In this document: piece by piece, positions 2,569 through 11,776 of the stretch
Layout: each line of letters begins with the position of its first letter
Position numbering within the stretch: the stretch's first letter is position 1
Assembly (NCBI GenBank): GCA_021796055.1
Contig: JAJYOS010000039.1
Coordinates: 1 to 15,772, forward strand
Direction: 5' to 3'
DNA from: Bacteroidota bacterium
GTDB taxonomy: Bacteria; Bacteroidota; Kryptoniia; Kryptoniales; JAKASW01
DNA length: 15,772 nucleotides
The notes under the pieces: generated by a model
Database searches by the model: none
What the model saw: the letters and a program-made list of their open reading frames with translations, nothing else
What the model was told of the DNA's origin: nothing
Made by a program: the position numbers and the translations under genes

Positions 2569-2722
2569 AAAAGCTCAAAATACCAACTGCCAAGTTCCAA
2601 ACAAGAACTGACAAAATGAATTGATACAAATTGGACAGGTGTTTTTATTTATTCGTTGAAGCTTAAGCACTGTTTGGAGCTTGAGGATTGAAGTTTGGAA
2701 TTTCCGACTGAAAGGAGGATCT
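2569..2722. repeat. Palindromic spacer element I (CCAA/TTGG type)
   Basis: The whole valS-yajQ gap is an imperfect palindrome. The left arm (about 2578-2607) contains CAAGTTCCAAACAAGAA at 2591-2607. The right arm (about 2671-2700) contains TGTTTGGAGCTTG at 2671-2683 and then TTGAAGTTTGGAA. The central part is A/T rich with a CTTAAG at 2662-2667. The 17-base word at 2591-2607 recurs identically at 10218-10234, and a 14-base inverted copy lies at 11742-11755. The element begins at the valS stop codon and ends just before the yajQ ribosome-binding site. A transcript would fold into a long imperfect hairpin. Function is unknown. Confidence 0.7.
2711..2718 (+). promoter_or_regulatory. Ribosome-binding site of yajQ
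   Basis: AAAGGAGG stands 4 bases upstream of a GTG codon at 2723 and fixes that codon as the start. From there the protein reads VPSFDV, matching the usual MPSFD N-terminus of the family. The longer reading from 2681 would translate the right arm of the palindromic spacer. Confidence 0.85.
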
Positions 2723-3214
2723 GTGCCATCATTCGATGTAGTAAATCAAGTCGACTTGCAGGAAGTCGATAATGCAATCAACAATACCAAAAAAGAAATA
2801 GCCACACGATACGATTTCCGCGGCTCTCCGGCAGAGGTGACGCTCGACAAGAAGGAGAAGAAGATTCACGTAGTCGCGGAGCATGAGATGAGAATGGACG
2901 CGGTAATGGACATGCTCATGACTCACATGATCAAGCGCAAAGTCGATCCGAAGGTTCTGAAGGCTAAGGGCGTCGAGCCGACTTCGCAGGGACACGTCAA
3001 GCGCGAGATCGAGATAAAAGAAGGTATCGACACCGAGACCGCGAAGAAGATCGTTAAGCTTATAAAGGATCAGAAGCTGAAAGTTCAGGCTGCCATACAG
3101 GACGAGCAGGTTCGCGTTACCGGCAAGAAGATCGACGACCTGCAGGAAGTGATCAAGATGCTGCGGACGCAGAACGTCGGCATACCGCTGCAATTTGTAA
3201 ACATGAAAGACTAA
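2723..3214 (+). CDS. yajQ: YajQ-family (DUF520) nucleotide-binding protein
   Basis: A small cytosolic protein of 163 residues, the same length as E. coli YajQ. Some members of this family bind cyclic di-GMP and influence transcription or translation; whether this one does is not shown here. Visible family features are the N-terminal [18 protein letters not shown], the TRYDFRGS segment, a central stretch of [19 protein letters not shown], and the C-terminal half with [20 protein letters not shown] and a terminal PLQFVNMKD. Two ferredoxin-like halves are expected for the family. The start is GTG at 2723 behind a strong Shine-Dalgarno. It is flanked by valS and rfbC but separated from each by a palindromic spacer, so the genomic context says little about its role. 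Confidence 0.93.
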
Positions 3215-3330
3215 AGAGTATTGCTAATTGCGGGTTTCGGATTGCGAATTGATCTGTTCCAAGTGCGGTCTGAAATCGCCTTACTCTTTCTAATTATCCC
3301 AATCCGCAATTCGAAATCCAAAATTTTAGG
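3215..3330. repeat. Palindromic spacer element II (GGATTGCG type)
   Basis: The gap between yajQ and rfbC holds a left arm at 3221-3252 with the words ATTGCGGGTTTCGGATTGCG and a right arm at about 3291-3327 with CCCAATCCGCAATTCGAAAT. These are reverse complements with slips of a few bases. The word set differs from the other elements (its left arm is G/T rich), yet the layout is the same: it starts a few bases after the TAA stop of yajQ and runs into the TAGGAG Shine-Dalgarno of rfbC. Function is unknown. Confidence 0.6.
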
Positions 3331-3335
3331 AGATC

Positions 3336-8625: not shown

Positions 8626-8775
8626 TTGGCGTAAACTCTAGGTTCTAATCACTAAACTCTAAACAATGACCGAAATCTAAAATTCGGAAAACCAAGCTTT
8701 GGGTTTCGAGTTTTGCGCTTAGAGCTTGTTTAGAGTTTAGAATTTCGTATTTCGAATTTGGTCAAGTTTCCAGAC
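8626..8775. repeat. Palindromic spacer element III (CTAAACTCTAAAC type)
   Basis: A perfect 15-base inverted repeat, CTAAACTCTAAACAA at 8652-8666 and TTGTTTAGAGTTTAG at 8726-8740, lies inside a longer imperfect palindrome that fills the gap between the DUF2892 gene and the oxidoreductase gene. A second TAAACTCTA is at 8632-8640. The 16-base word ACTAAACTCTAAACAA (8651-8666) recurs exactly at 9360-9375 in element IV. The arm closest to the DUF2892 gene begins within about 15 bases of its TAA stop. Confidence 0.75.
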
Positions 8776-8976
8776 TTATGCCTGGTTCGGCTCTTTCTTC
8801 CGGGTCGAAATTCTGAGTGCTGCCCAGATGGGGCAGAAGTTGAGAGCAGCCGTCGCAAGTGGGATTAGTCCGATCCAGCCCCATGCTGTCTTCGGGCCCC
8901 AGAACTGCAAGCTAATCAGGAATAGTCCGACGATTACGCGGATCCATTTGTCAGCGCTTCCTACGTTCTTCTTCAT
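8776..8976 (-). CDS. DUF2892 small inner-membrane protein
   Basis: A 66-residue protein matching the DUF2892 (YgaP-like transmembrane) family: an N-terminal MKKNVGSADKWIRVIVGL, a first membrane span at about 11-27, and a second at about 32-54 ending in NFCPIWAAL, where the CP pair is a family hallmark. The C-terminus is short and basic. In YgaP the same module is fused to a rhodanese domain; here it stands alone. The start ATG has GGAG (complement of 8983-8986) six bases upstream. It follows the anti-sigma gene by 72 bases and precedes the oxidoreductase gene, so it is probably a member of the same redox-related operon. Its molecular role is unknown. Confidence 0.88.
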   Translation of the reverse strand: MKKNVGSADKWIRVIVGLFLISLQFWGPKTAWGWIGLIPLATAALNFCPIWAALRISTRKKEPNQA

Positions 8977-9048
8977 TGTATTCTCCGGATTTGTTTGTCA
9001 GTAAGATTCAGTTTCCGAAATGTAAGATGCCGCCTACGAAAGGAAGAT

Positions 9049-9336
9049 TCAGTGCGGGTGCTTCTTGCCGCGATCCTCGCCGTGCCCCTTCGGAGGGAGT
9101 GTGATTTGAAGAGGCTCGTCGAGGTCCAGCCGCGCGAGGATTTGAGTAACCCGCGATCCTTTCATCTCGACATCGTAATCCCGATACAGGACAATCGTCT
9201 TTTTCAGAGAATCATAGTAGGCGGCGCAATCAGGACACTTCTGAAGGTGTTCCCGCAATTTCTTACAGGTCGGAGAAGCCAGATCCTGATCCACCTTCTC
9301 GCAAATCTCCAGCAGATATTTCTTGTGATCAACCAA
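9049..9336 (-). CDS. Soluble zinc-binding anti-sigma factor (zf-HC2/ZAS type)
   Basis: A 95-residue protein without a membrane span. It holds the HxxxCxxC zinc motif as His30, Cys34 and Cys37 (EHLQKCPDC), with Cys12 and Cys24 as candidate further ligands. This is the pattern of ZAS anti-sigma factors, some of which (RsrA type) release their sigma factor when thiols are oxidised. The C-terminus is rich in His, Gly and Lys (GHGEDRGKKHPH) and may bind metal. It lies downstream of the ECF sigma gene on the same strand, which supports the pairing, although a 258-base palindrome-bearing gap separates them. The start is TTG 9336; AGGA of element IV lies eight bases upstream. The exact start could be a few residues off. 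Confidence 0.85.
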   Translation of the reverse strand: MVDHKKYLLEICEKVDQDLASPTCKKLREHLQKCPDCAAYYDSLKKTIVLYRDYDVEMKGSRVTQILARLDLDEPLQITLPPKGHGEDRGKKHPH

Positions 9337-9594
9337 CTGATAAATCCTAAATTCTAAATACTAAACTCTAAACAAACCCTAAATTCTAATTTCCCATCCG
9401 GCTTCACGGGACTATTTAGCGGAAGAGAAATAGTTGCACATTTTATCTCTTCCTTCCGCTGACGAGGAAATGCCCGAACTGTCCCGACCACCTGTTTTTT
9501 ATTCTGAGTTCTTTTCATTCGGATTTGTTTCGAACTTAGAGTTTCGGGTTTAGGGTTTCATATCTGGCGACCAGAAAATCCAAACTTGTCCTCG
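9337..9594. repeat. Palindromic spacer element IV between sigma and anti-sigma genes
   Basis: A left arm at about 9341-9392 with tandem words such as CTAAACTCTAAACAA (9361-9375) and CCTAAATTCTAATTT pairs imperfectly with a right arm at about 9520-9560 that contains GGATTTGTTTC and GGGTTTAGGGTTTCA. The arms share word type with element III. The centre holds a separate hairpin (see next entry). No open frame of note is present. On the minus strand the element separates the sigma gene from its anti-sigma gene and its last arm supplies the AGGA in front of the anti-sigma TTG start. Confidence 0.7.
9419..9459. other. Hairpin in the centre of element IV
   Basis: GCGGAAG (9419-9425) pairs with CTTCCGC (9453-9459), and GGAAGAGA (9421-9428) can alternatively pair with TCTCTTCC (9446-9453). 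The loop is A/T rich. There is no clean T run on either side, so it looks more like a processing or attenuation structure, or just the tip of the element, than a classical terminator. Confidence 0.4.
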
Positions 9595-10164: not shown

Positions 10165-10262
10165 GTACTAAGCTCCAAGCTCCAACCGACAAGCCGCAAG
10201 CTCCAAGTTCCAACTAACAAGTTCCAAACAAGAAGATAACTTCAAACAGCAAAGCTCCAATT
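10165..10262. repeat. Repeat arm V, distal to the four-helix-bundle segment
   Basis: A run of related words: AAGCTCCAAGCTCCAA (10170-10185), CAAGCTCCAAGTTCCAA (about 10197-10213) and CAAGTTCCAAACAAGAA (10218-10234), the last identical to 2591-2607 in element I. On the minus strand it reads as the TTGG-type right arm. Its partner, in inverted orientation, is not in the same gap but inside the folD fusion gene at 10663-10676 (CTTGTTTGGAGCTT, one mismatch to the complement of 10219-10232). The arm end provides the GGAG in front of the sigma gene. Confidence 0.7.
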
Positions 10263-10297
10263 CTTTTTCAAACGACAGATCCATTCCAGTTATAAGC

Positions 10298-10633
10298 TCA
10301 CTCCGCTTTCTGAATCATTGCAGACAATATTTTTAGTAATTCAGTCGATTCATCTGCCAGGCTCGTCCGTTCATTGTTTAGAGAGTCCGGACATTCAAGG
10401 AGATCCAACCAGTATCTCGACTCTTTGGCCTCCTTCCTGGCTATCCTCAGTCTCATCAAGAAGTCTTTTTTGCCAAGAGAGTCGTTGGCCTCAATATAAT
10501 TTGCCCCGACTGCTCCCGAGCATCTGATCAACTGCTTCGAGTTCTCTACGTTAGCGGGAGTCTTGGGAATTGTACTCAGGAATTTGATGACATTCTGCGC
10601 ATACAGTAAGGAACGCTGTCCCAGATCAAAGGG
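10298..10633 (-). other. C-terminal four-helix-bundle (S23 / 23S IVS-protein-like) domain of the FolD fusion
   Basis: Residues 308-418 of the fusion read PFDLGQRSLLYAQNVIKFL, IPKTPANVENSKQLIRCSG, AVGANYIEANDSLGKKDF and LRIARKEAKESRYWLDLL, then a last helix ELLKILSAMIQKAE. The LIR.SG.VGANYIEA....KKDF......ARKEAKESRYWL pattern is the hallmark of the 'four helix bundle protein' family, which includes proteins encoded by intervening sequences in 23S rRNA genes and is related to the Avd accessory proteins of retroelements. Normally it is a free protein of about 110-125 residues, and this segment is full length. Its role in this fusion is unknown. Confidence 0.88.
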
Positions 10634-11554
10634 TTTATCTTTTTGATTACTTGTTGTTGGGACTTGTTTGGAGCTTTTCCCGCCGTCGTTTCTCGCAGCG
10701 GCCATATAAGTGTTCATCATCAGCATGGAAATTGTCATCGCTCCGACTCCGCCCGGCACCGGGGTGATCCAGCCTGCAACATCCTTTGCCGCTTCGAAAT
10801 CGACGTCGCCGACGAGTCCGGCGTCGGTTCGGTTAATGCCGACGTCGAGCACCGCAGCGCCCGGCTTTATAAAATCTTTCCCGATGAAGTTCGCTTTGCC
10901 TATGACCGCGACAAGTATGTCCGCGTCGCGACAGACCTCTTTCAAATCCTGGGTGCGCGAGTGCGCGATCGTCACGGTCGCGTTCTTGGAGAGAAGAAGC
11001 GCGGCGGTGGGTTTGCCTCCTAGGTTTGACCTCCCGACGACAACAGCCTTCTTTCCCTCGACTGCGATTCCATATTTCTCGAGGAGCACCATCATCCCGT
11101 ACGGCGTGCAGGGAAGGAGAAGGCGCTTGTCCATTATTTCCTTCCATGACTTCGCCTCGGAGTAAAGTCCGATGTTGAAGGGGTGAAGCGCGTCGACGTC
11201 TTTTGACGGAGCGATCGATTCGATGACGTCGTACTCGTTGATATGCTTTGGAAGCGGCATCTGTACTAGTATGCCGTGTACGCGCTCATCGTTATTGAAT
11301 TCCACGACCTTGTCGATGACCTTCTGCTGCGAAACGTCTTCCGTCATCTTTTCGGTGACGTGGTAGAAGCCGAGCGACTCGCAAGCCTTCGCCTTGTTCC
11401 TGACGTAGACCTCCGACGCCGGATTGTTACCTACAAGTATGAACGCGAGCCCGGGCGTGACGCCGCTTTCCTGATTCAGCTTCACGGTGAGCTCTTTTAC
11501 TTCGGCTCGGATCTCCTGTGAAACCGATTTGCCGTCTATTAGTATTCCCGTCAT
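10298..11554 (-). CDS. folD: FolD (methylene-THF dehydrogenase/cyclohydrolase) fused to a four-helix-bundle domain
   Basis: A 418-residue protein. Residues 1-289 are a complete FolD, the cytosolic bifunctional enzyme that oxidises 5,10-methylene-THF with NADP and hydrolyses the product to 10-formyl-THF. Seen are Tyr50 and Lys54 in the YVRNK motif, Gln98 in ILVQMPLP, Asp121 in KDVDALHPFN, PCTP at 148-151, the nucleotide-binding VVVGRSNLGGKP at 171-182, and TPVPGGVGAMT at 264-274. Usual length is about 280-300, so the gene is some 120 residues too long. A Ser/Thr/Lys/Gln-rich linker at 290-307 joins it to residues 308-418, a four-helix-bundle protein of the TIGR02436/S23 type (see separate entry). 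ATG 11554 has GGAG (complement of 11563-11566) eight bases upstream, in a repeat arm. The reading frame is intact across the junction. Confidence 0.95.
   Translation of the reverse strand: MTGILIDGKSVSQEIRAEVKELTVKLNQESGVTPGLAFILVGNNPASEVYVRNKAKACESLGFYHVTEKMTEDVSQQKVIDKVVEFNNDERVHGILVQMPLPKHINEYDVIESIAPSKDVDALHPFNIGLYSEAKSWKEIMDKRLLLPCTPYGMMVLLEKYGIAVEGKKAVVVGRSNLGGKPTAALLLSKNATVTIAHSRTQDLKEVCRDADILVAVIGKANFIGKDFIKPGAAVLDVGINRTDAGLVGDVDFEAAKDVAGWITPVPGGVGAMTISMLMMNTYMAAARNDGGKSSKQVPTTSNQKDKPFDLGQRSLLYAQNVIKFLSTIPKTPANVENSKQLIRCSGAVGANYIEANDSLGKKDFLMRLRIARKEAKESRYWLDLLECPDSLNNERTSLADESTELLKILSAMIQKAE
10634..10687. repeat. Repeat arm embedded in the folD reading frame (linker)
   Basis: The linker codons 290-307 are written in spacer-repeat sequence. 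On the plus strand, ACTTGTTGTTGGGACTTG is followed by TTTGGAGCTTTT, so CTTGTTTGGAGCTT lies at 10663-10676. The same word type builds the arms of elements I, V and VI. On the coding strand the segment runs AAAAGCTCCAAACAAG, as in the start of element I right after the valS stop (AAAAGCTCAAAA). This places the fusion point exactly at an element boundary. Confidence 0.7.
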
Positions 11555-11776
11555 CTGTTAAGCTCCAAACTCAAACGAAAGACCAAATTCCAAATTCCAA
11601 CCTACAAGTTCCAAGCAGAGTTTAAACTCCAACCTCCAACTCACAAATAACAAACAAAAGCCAAGTTCCAGGCCCCAATGTCCTGCAAATCGAAAAAATC
11701 TGCTGCAGCTTAAGGGCCGTTTGAGATTTTGTTGTTTGAATTTGTTTGGAACTTGGTATTTGTAGCTTGAGATTTT
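11555..11776. repeat. Palindromic spacer element VI between ymdB and folD
   Basis: The 222-base gap is almost entirely repeat. The left part (11561-11680) has AAGCTCCAAACTCAAAC, AAATTCCAAATTCCAA, CAAGTTCCAA (11605-11614) and CCAAGTTCCA. The right part (about 11708-11776) has CTTAAGGGCCGTTTGAG and TTTGTTTGGAACTTGG (11741-11756). The arms pair imperfectly. On the minus strand the element begins directly at the ymdB TGA stop, with the AAGTTCC word 21-22 bases after the stop, as in element I after valS. Its other end supplies the GGAG of folD. Confidence 0.75.

Follow-up and report, generated by a model that had tools for sequence, protein, structure and literature searches.

S23 four-helix-bundle genes between inverted heptamer arrays suggest a mobile or regulatory element not described before

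S23 genes are often flanked on both sides by arrays of a degenerate heptamer in inverted orientation, each locus with a word of its own, and these S23-arm cassettes suggest a type of element, mobile or regulatory, that has not been described so far. The element from which we started lies in a 15,772-nucleotide stretch of DNA (hereafter the window) from a Bacteroidota bacterium (assembly GCA_021796055.1, contig JAJYOS010000039.1; this genome is G000, and other G numbers denote related genomes). The window element is probably a copy of a cassette class found in several phyla, whose S23 protein is predicted to bind the heptamer arms of its own cassette.

The S23 domain of the window forms the C-terminus of FolD in a single open frame, with no separate gene (Table 1). 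Its match to PF05635 (E 2.1e-13; 50.8 bits against a curated cut-off of 33.8) and its match to TIGR02436 (67.4 bits, cut-off 24) place it within the family, and 2RLD is a relative in the PDB (E 2.6e-13). The sequence-only reading had described this segment as flanked by inverted CCAA/TTGG arms, and the arms were indeed present, with CTTGTTTGGAGCTT at 10663-10676 and CAAGTTCCAAACAAG at 10218-10232. The inverted score of the two flanks was 21; across this genome 10 of 3792 positions with identical geometry scored as high, as did 0 of 1000 shuffles of both flanks. In the class-wide survey described below the domain edge was placed further out, and the window place scored only 12 there because this edge cut into one arm. 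No tRNA was found in the window, and no Rfam match reached the gathering score. Fusions of FolD with S23 numbered 23, the window's included, among the 120 protein-search matches listed of 8000.

Table 1. Coordinates of the S23 element and of the gene-less palindromes in the window
Feature	Position	Strand	Remarks
FolD-S23 ORF	10298..11554	-	FolD residues 6-288 and S23 residues 313-411 in one frame
S23 / 23S_rRNA_IVP four-helix-bundle domain (PF05635)	10322..10618 (approximate)	-	profile match
Arm 5' of S23 domain	10642..10679	-	TTGG words on + strand; encodes the FolD-S23 linker (...SSKQVPTTSNQ)
Arm 3' of S23 domain	10169..10239	-	CCAA heptamers on + strand
Gene-less palindrome, CCAA type	11555..11776	.	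between folD and ymdB; 0/1000 shuffles
Gene-less palindrome, CCAA type	2569..2725 (also 2569-2722)	.	between valS and yajQ; 37/1000 shuffles, weak alone
Gene-less palindrome, GGATTGCGAATTG type	3215..3335	.	0/1000 shuffles
Gene-less palindrome, CTAA type	8626..8775	.	0/1000 shuffles
Gene-less palindrome, CTAA type	9337..9594	.	directly after the sigma-factor stop codon; 0/1000 shuffles

We searched the whole genome with TIGR02436 and obtained 11 matches, which fall at nine places if the pair of fragments on contig C6 counts once. Only the window S23 was enclosed by CCAA/TTGG arrays; single CCAA words stood beside some of the other eight, and several places showed inverted arrays of other words, e.g., AGAGTGAC/AAAGTAAC, GGATTTCGAATT, AAATTCTAAATTTTGAATT and GGATTGATGG. 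The sequence-only reading had expected one common CCAA/TTGG arm for all S23 genes and had taken S23 genes without it as counting against the proposal; read literally, it falls, because the other S23 genes here lack such arms, and it holds in the general form given at the outset. The arm score at five of the nine places was reached by at most 30 of 3792 null positions (0, 2, 3, 10 and 30). At the remaining four the score detected no arms (C216a, 364; C216c, 364; C216b, 3528; C6, 3757 of 3792), the C6 value being measured across the two gene fragments. The S23 frames at C6 and C216c are broken. On C6 (locus L016, 3684-6038), long CTTCTGACTTCCGAC-like heptamer arrays lie between the two broken fragments. 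S23 genes were also seen in clusters: three, one of them broken, lie within 4 kb at G000:C216:40703-44310, and one 16-kb contig of G010 (C81) carries four S23 matches.

Inverted arms were found well beyond this genome. TIGR02436 matches were present in 47 of the 61 genomes surveyed, this one included. Regions were fetched for 40 of the first 44 rows of the match list (of the rows left out, two were this genome's own and two came from G023, both close to a contig end), which together with this genome's own places gave a class sample of 53 full-length S23 places. Their median inverted score was 22, compared with 13 at 2486 positions in the same loci (p 5e-25); 39 of the 53 reached the same-locus 95th percentile and 24 exceeded the 99th, and none exceeded the null maximum. 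The sample from named genomes comprised 80 loci, the best of 586 confirmed ones (from at least 592 matched stretches). Its 74 scorable loci had a median of 20 versus 13 (p 2.8e-17), with 31 above the 95th percentile, 15 above the 99th, and 43 short of the 95th. Among viral contigs, 52 encode S23 (L181-L232); 50 were scored and 18 exceeded the 95th percentile (p 1.9e-11), words such as TCGGCNT and GGCTCCA being found at armed viral loci. Fourteen named loci, picked for phylum or score, were inspected by eye, and the arms were plain in Geothrix, Desulfosarcina, Thiobacillus, two Clostridia, Acidobacteriales and Flavobacterium, among others. The sample as a whole is biased towards strong S23 matches.

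After removal of 24 duplicates, 197 distinct S23 domains were left, 192 of them scorable. A core arm was obtained at the chosen cut-off for 139 of the 197; the other 58 gave none, five of them having flanks too short for scoring. The arms (median core length 30) have a period of seven: the best lag was 7 in 113 of the 139 and 8 in 18, as opposed to an even spread over lags 4-12 in shuffled arms, and the mean arm identity was 0.67, 0.65 and 0.60 at lags 7, 14 and 21 versus 0.23-0.32 at all remaining lags between 4 and 20.

The arm word and the S23 sequence covary, even across phyla. S23 identity correlated with the similarity of oriented arm 5-mers (Mantel r of 0.145, reached in 0 of 999 permutations), and r was 0.140 with GC partialled out; strand-symmetric versions of the test were weaker (k=5, r 0.07, 3/999; k=4, r 0.06, 16/999). 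The correlation was also seen for the 9145 pairs with less than 0.7 S23 identity that lack homologous neighbours up to 2.5 kb away (r 0.119, 0/1999) and for the 1128 cross-phylum pairs alone (r 0.121, 2/1999), in which the phylum of each locus was taken from the record title, this genome's relatives were grouped with Bacteroidota, and viral loci and two 'bacterium' loci were left out. Among the 1086 cross-phylum pairs without homologous neighbours, a common word (cosine >0.3) was shared by a fraction of 0.151 of the 86 pairs at 0.5-0.6 S23 identity, as opposed to 0.004-0.019 at 0.3-0.5. The word TCAGCNN, for example, is common to this genome's class, Bacteroidales, Methylobacillus, Geothrix and Clostridia. 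All these correlations are small; below 50% identity, most pairs have no common word.

Five other gaps of the window carry palindromes of the same kind without a gene (Table 1; word types here and below were assigned by eye). Of the two that had been reported from the sequence alone, the one between folD and ymdB stood out clearly from its shuffles, whereas the one between valS and yajQ was weak by itself and was not recovered by the periodic-palindrome scans, although its arms match those of the former (49 nt, 78% complementary). A control gap without such words (8977-9048) had its score reached by 995 of 1000 shuffles. The GGATTGCGAATTG word of one palindrome is close to the word of the S23 gene at G000:C117:6227. 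Smaller inverted sequences lie inside some palindrome loops, namely GGCATCCCGC...GACGGGACA at the slot of the 8626-8775 palindrome in G010 (L248) and G008 (L249), and a different short one at 9390-9515 of the window; they are perhaps nested short repeats of another family.

The gene-less palindromes are concentrated near S23 genes. At a score of at least 20, the periodic-palindrome detector, which recovers just part of the palindromes, found three in the 16-kb window (one being the S23 element itself) and none in 190 kb of background from this genome (two at score 18), in 103 kb of G010, in 140 kb of the S23-less G005 or in the folD regions of G005, G007 and G011; 111 kb of the S23-less G015 and G017 yielded one. 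An even spread of the palindromes through the genome was rejected by these densities in window and background. The earlier claim of a dispersed element is thus to be narrowed: it has gene-less relatives near S23, but these are not evenly spread. With the score set at 18 and palindromes enclosing S23 not counted (118 loci), satellites numbered 8.4 per 100 kb at 0-0.7 kb from S23, 10.1 at 0.7-1.5 kb, 4.6 at 1.5-2.5 kb, 2.1 at 2.5-4 kb and 0 at 4-8 kb, the last bin (48 kb) being too small to distinguish 0 from the background value, which was 0.6 (three palindromes in 540 kb, including two in the 190 kb of this genome). An earlier strict detector gave 11 inverted repeats, three of them periodic, in 205 kb of G000. 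An insensitive k-mer detector gave two pairs in the same length, both in the window and one of them (8724-9377) joining arms of two neighbouring elements, as well as none in 160 kb of G005 and one in 111 kb of G015 and G017.

The satellites also tend to carry the word of the local S23 gene. Among 29 satellites at least 700 bp from S23, 11 ranked the word of their own S23 first among 87 loci, and it was in the first 5% for 14 and outside it for 15. The mean similarity of satellite word to own S23 word was 0.442, which 0 of 2000 permutations reached (highest 0.273). Furthermore, 56 of the 71 periodic armed pairs with loops of 330-1000 enclose S23, in a sequence set composed largely of S23 loci. 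At least nine of the other 15 pair the arms of two adjacent elements that face each other with host genes in between (folD, a sigma factor, an ABC ATPase, rfbC-like and kinase-like genes, and the DUF2892/zinc-finger genes of the window). The kinship of gene-less palindromes and S23-carrying element that had been proposed is therefore supported by both the enclosed genes and a shared word above chance. Another of the pairs without S23 encloses a different ORF between exact 31-base inverted ends (L100:1519-2051) and is probably a different small mobile element.

It could be argued that arrays and genes have no functional link, the arrays arising from replication slippage and the S23 genes, mobile by other means, settling in such gaps. 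Published heptamer arrays are described, in the text available, without a link to S23 (PMC4679880, PMC2700814), which speaks for this view. We nevertheless consider it highly improbable, given the enclosure of S23 by most long-loop armed pairs, the inverted order of the arrays around a loop that holds S23, the covariation across phyla of arm word and protein, and the agreement of S23 variant and arm word in all FolD-S23 fusions among the 120 listed matches (see below).

Comparison of the window gaps with sister genomes showed occupied and empty orthologous sites. The gap between the zinc-finger and sigma-factor genes measures 258 bp in the window and 5 to 8 bp in 11 of 11 sisters, and the element in it shows no target duplication beyond one base. 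This clean 258-bp insertion concerns a gene-less form of the element, and it bears out the expectation that relatives would have empty sites. The folD–ymdB gap (11 of 11 sisters compared) is 8 bp in G005 and 29 bp in G007, and is of CTAA type in six sisters. The valS–yajQ gap (3 of 11 compared) is of AAGGTGAA type in G010 and 38 bp long in G005, and the yajQ–rfbC gap (4 of 11 compared) is 15 bp in G007. Several other sisters carry another word type at these three gaps, and the slot of the 8626-8775 palindrome is of CCAA type in G009 and G008.

The S23-carrying cassettes were repeatedly exchanged at the folD slot. folD is present in 12 of the 13 genomes of the genus, and S23 stands at its end in eight of the 12, leaving four without it. 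Six carry FolD-S23 in one frame, with CCAA arms in G000, G008 and G006 and CTAA arms in G010, G002 and G003; in a further two, G009 and G001, the S23 frame is broken and the arms are of CTAA type. Wherever S23 or its remains are present (eight genomes), the gap upstream of folD appeared by eye to be of the same type as the downstream arms. The S23 domains group by arm type, with 67-70% and 77-79% identity within the types and 49-53% between them, whereas FolD does not: the FolD proteins of G006 and G002 are 98% identical and their S23 domains 53%. One site thus holds different S23-arm cassettes in these two genomes, and the slots on both sides of folD (98.6% identical DNA), ~0.9 kb apart, differ in type; the near-identity of ~98% covers the fetched 6-kb contig of G006, not whole genomes. 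Elsewhere in this pair, a short insert with a CCCGC...GCGGG hairpin lies in the cytochrome c assembly gene of G002 (L246:13204-13251), and the near-identical gene copy of G006 (L245) lacks it.

All 23 FolD-S23 fusions, some of which come from the same genomes, had an S23 variant concordant with the arm word, whereas the FolD phylogeny was not concordant with it. The linker, being translated arm, read SSK or SSR in 17 of 17 CC-type and NSK or NTK in 6 of 6 CT-type fusions. Type changes on the FolD tree numbered five, compared with three to six in 200 label shuffles. Three independent pairs on well-supported FolD branches, a small number, were all concordant. In six same-type pairs, S23 had a dN of 0.13-0.22 with saturated synonymous sites (pS 0.74-0.90), which suggests purifying selection on S23.

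The cassettes could also be exchanged by host homologous recombination when strains meet, and we considered whether the S23-arm unit is simply an allele that is carried along passively and does not move by itself. The reuse of the same slots within the genus and the presence of the same types in sister species are consistent with this, and no obvious dedicated enzyme was found: the RVT_1 profile had no match in G000 (rated 99.82% complete), G001, G005, G007, G008 or G010, the last with 14 S23 matches, and the Y1 transposase profile (PF01797, Y1_Tnp) had none in G000. PF01797 was matched in 12 of the 13 genomes of the genus. A reverse transcriptase or a Y1 transposase as a necessary partner was rejected, neither being matched in G000. 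However, recombination would need two events to account for the two differing slots that flank the 98.6% identical folD of G006 and G002, the slot that the zinc-finger–sigma-factor element entered is empty in each of the 11 sisters examined, and satellites tend to carry the word of the local S23. On this balance, recombination as the whole explanation seems rather unlikely to us.

A regulatory rather than selfish role is a further alternative, in which S23 binds heptamer stems in mRNA and tunes the processing or translation of flanking genes, and the arms spread by ordinary recombination. S23 genes showed a modest bias towards having both neighbours co-directional (93 of 142, compared with 145 of 293 controls; p 0.002; genes taken simply as the longest ORFs). 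The location of the elements at gene junctions, one of them directly after a stop codon, and the apparent purifying selection on S23 fit such a role as well. On the other hand, the presence and type of the elements vary at given slots, and do so even where two genomes are 98% identical, related S23 proteins beside unrelated neighbours keep similar words, and broken S23 frames exist (L234 and L237; C6 and C216c). We regard this role as possible, with the odds against it.

Several known systems resemble these elements in part. Intervening sequences (IVS) of 23S rRNA in Leptospira and Coxiella also have inverted complementary ends, an S23 ORF in the loop and a sporadic distribution, and IVS lacking the ORF exist. 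The window element shares the complementary ends, by the position and shuffle counts given above, but it lies at the end of folD and not inside an rRNA gene. In general, the elements here occupy junctions of protein genes, their word differs per element and covaries with S23, and S23 is conserved rather than decaying. The likeness to IVS drawn by the sequence-only reading is nonetheless apt, and it extends to the heptamers: in the Coxiella IVS, tandem heptamers (GACAGAT) lie just upstream of the S23 ORF and vary in copy number by strain (PMC4990558). The same source describes S23 proteins as having no known function and a Xanthomonas member as a toroid of five four-helix bundles (PMC4990558). 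A five-subunit S23 ring facing some four to five heptamers (core arms of 25-35 bases) would be an attractive fit, by analogy with that structure.

PF05635 is reported to resemble Avd of diversity-generating retroelements in sequence class and structure (PMC10053308). S23 shares this likeness, but the absence of RVT_1 matches from G000 and G010 sets the present elements apart from such retroelements. In REP/RAYT systems, gene-less palindromes are satellites of a protein-coding member. Such satellites are shared with the elements described here, whose arms are heptamer arrays of many unrelated words, and no Y1 transposase was matched in G000. Units of 7 to 8 bases in gaps, as found here, also make up the cyanobacterial STRR. 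They are further known as TAACTGA heptamer repeats in Beggiatoaceae and as paired hepta- or octamer sites, the pairs on opposite strands, in Geobacter metallireducens (PMC2700814, PMC4679880). The available text of these accounts describes such arrays as regulatory sites or repeats and names no S23 (PMC2700814, PMC4679880); by analogy, they may be gene-less forms of the S23-arm class. In the open-access literature, with few subscription journals or preprints, we found no report whose title, abstract or excerpts link S23 outside rRNA to heptamer arms.

Taking these comparisons together with the rivals above, we return to the S23-arm cassette as the preferred reading. In each cassette an S23 gene is bracketed by facing arrays of one degenerate word, a heptamer or sometimes an octamer, and gene-less satellite palindromes often occupy the neighbouring gaps. 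We infer that the S23 protein recognises arms of its own word as RNA or single-stranded DNA. An RNA target would fit the co-directional bias of S23 genes and the likeness to IVS; the RNA folding z-scores of the window elements were weak (-1.0 to -2.9). Such recognition would keep the arms uniform and would let cassette and satellites move short distances, for the most part into junctions between genes. The joints would be made by a host enzyme, joining being left to host enzymes since no reverse transcriptase or Y1 transposase was matched in the genome.

A wider proposal, which is plausible and which we put forward tentatively, is that S23 proteins act as readers of the arm words in a multi-phylum class of hairpin elements, not described so far, with a coevolving code between protein and word. 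Each S23 lineage would read one degenerate heptamer, maintain inverted arrays of it beside its gene and seed gene-less copies in the next gaps, and the rRNA IVS would be a branch that settled in 23S genes. S23 proteins are found in many bacterial lineages. Their link to covarying arm words suggests a substrate that experiments can probe and supplies natural pairs of protein and word. This link could unite scattered reports of heptamer repeats, of paired 'regulator sites' and of rRNA intervening sequences in one class, and could explain part of the fast-changing gaps in bacterial genomes.
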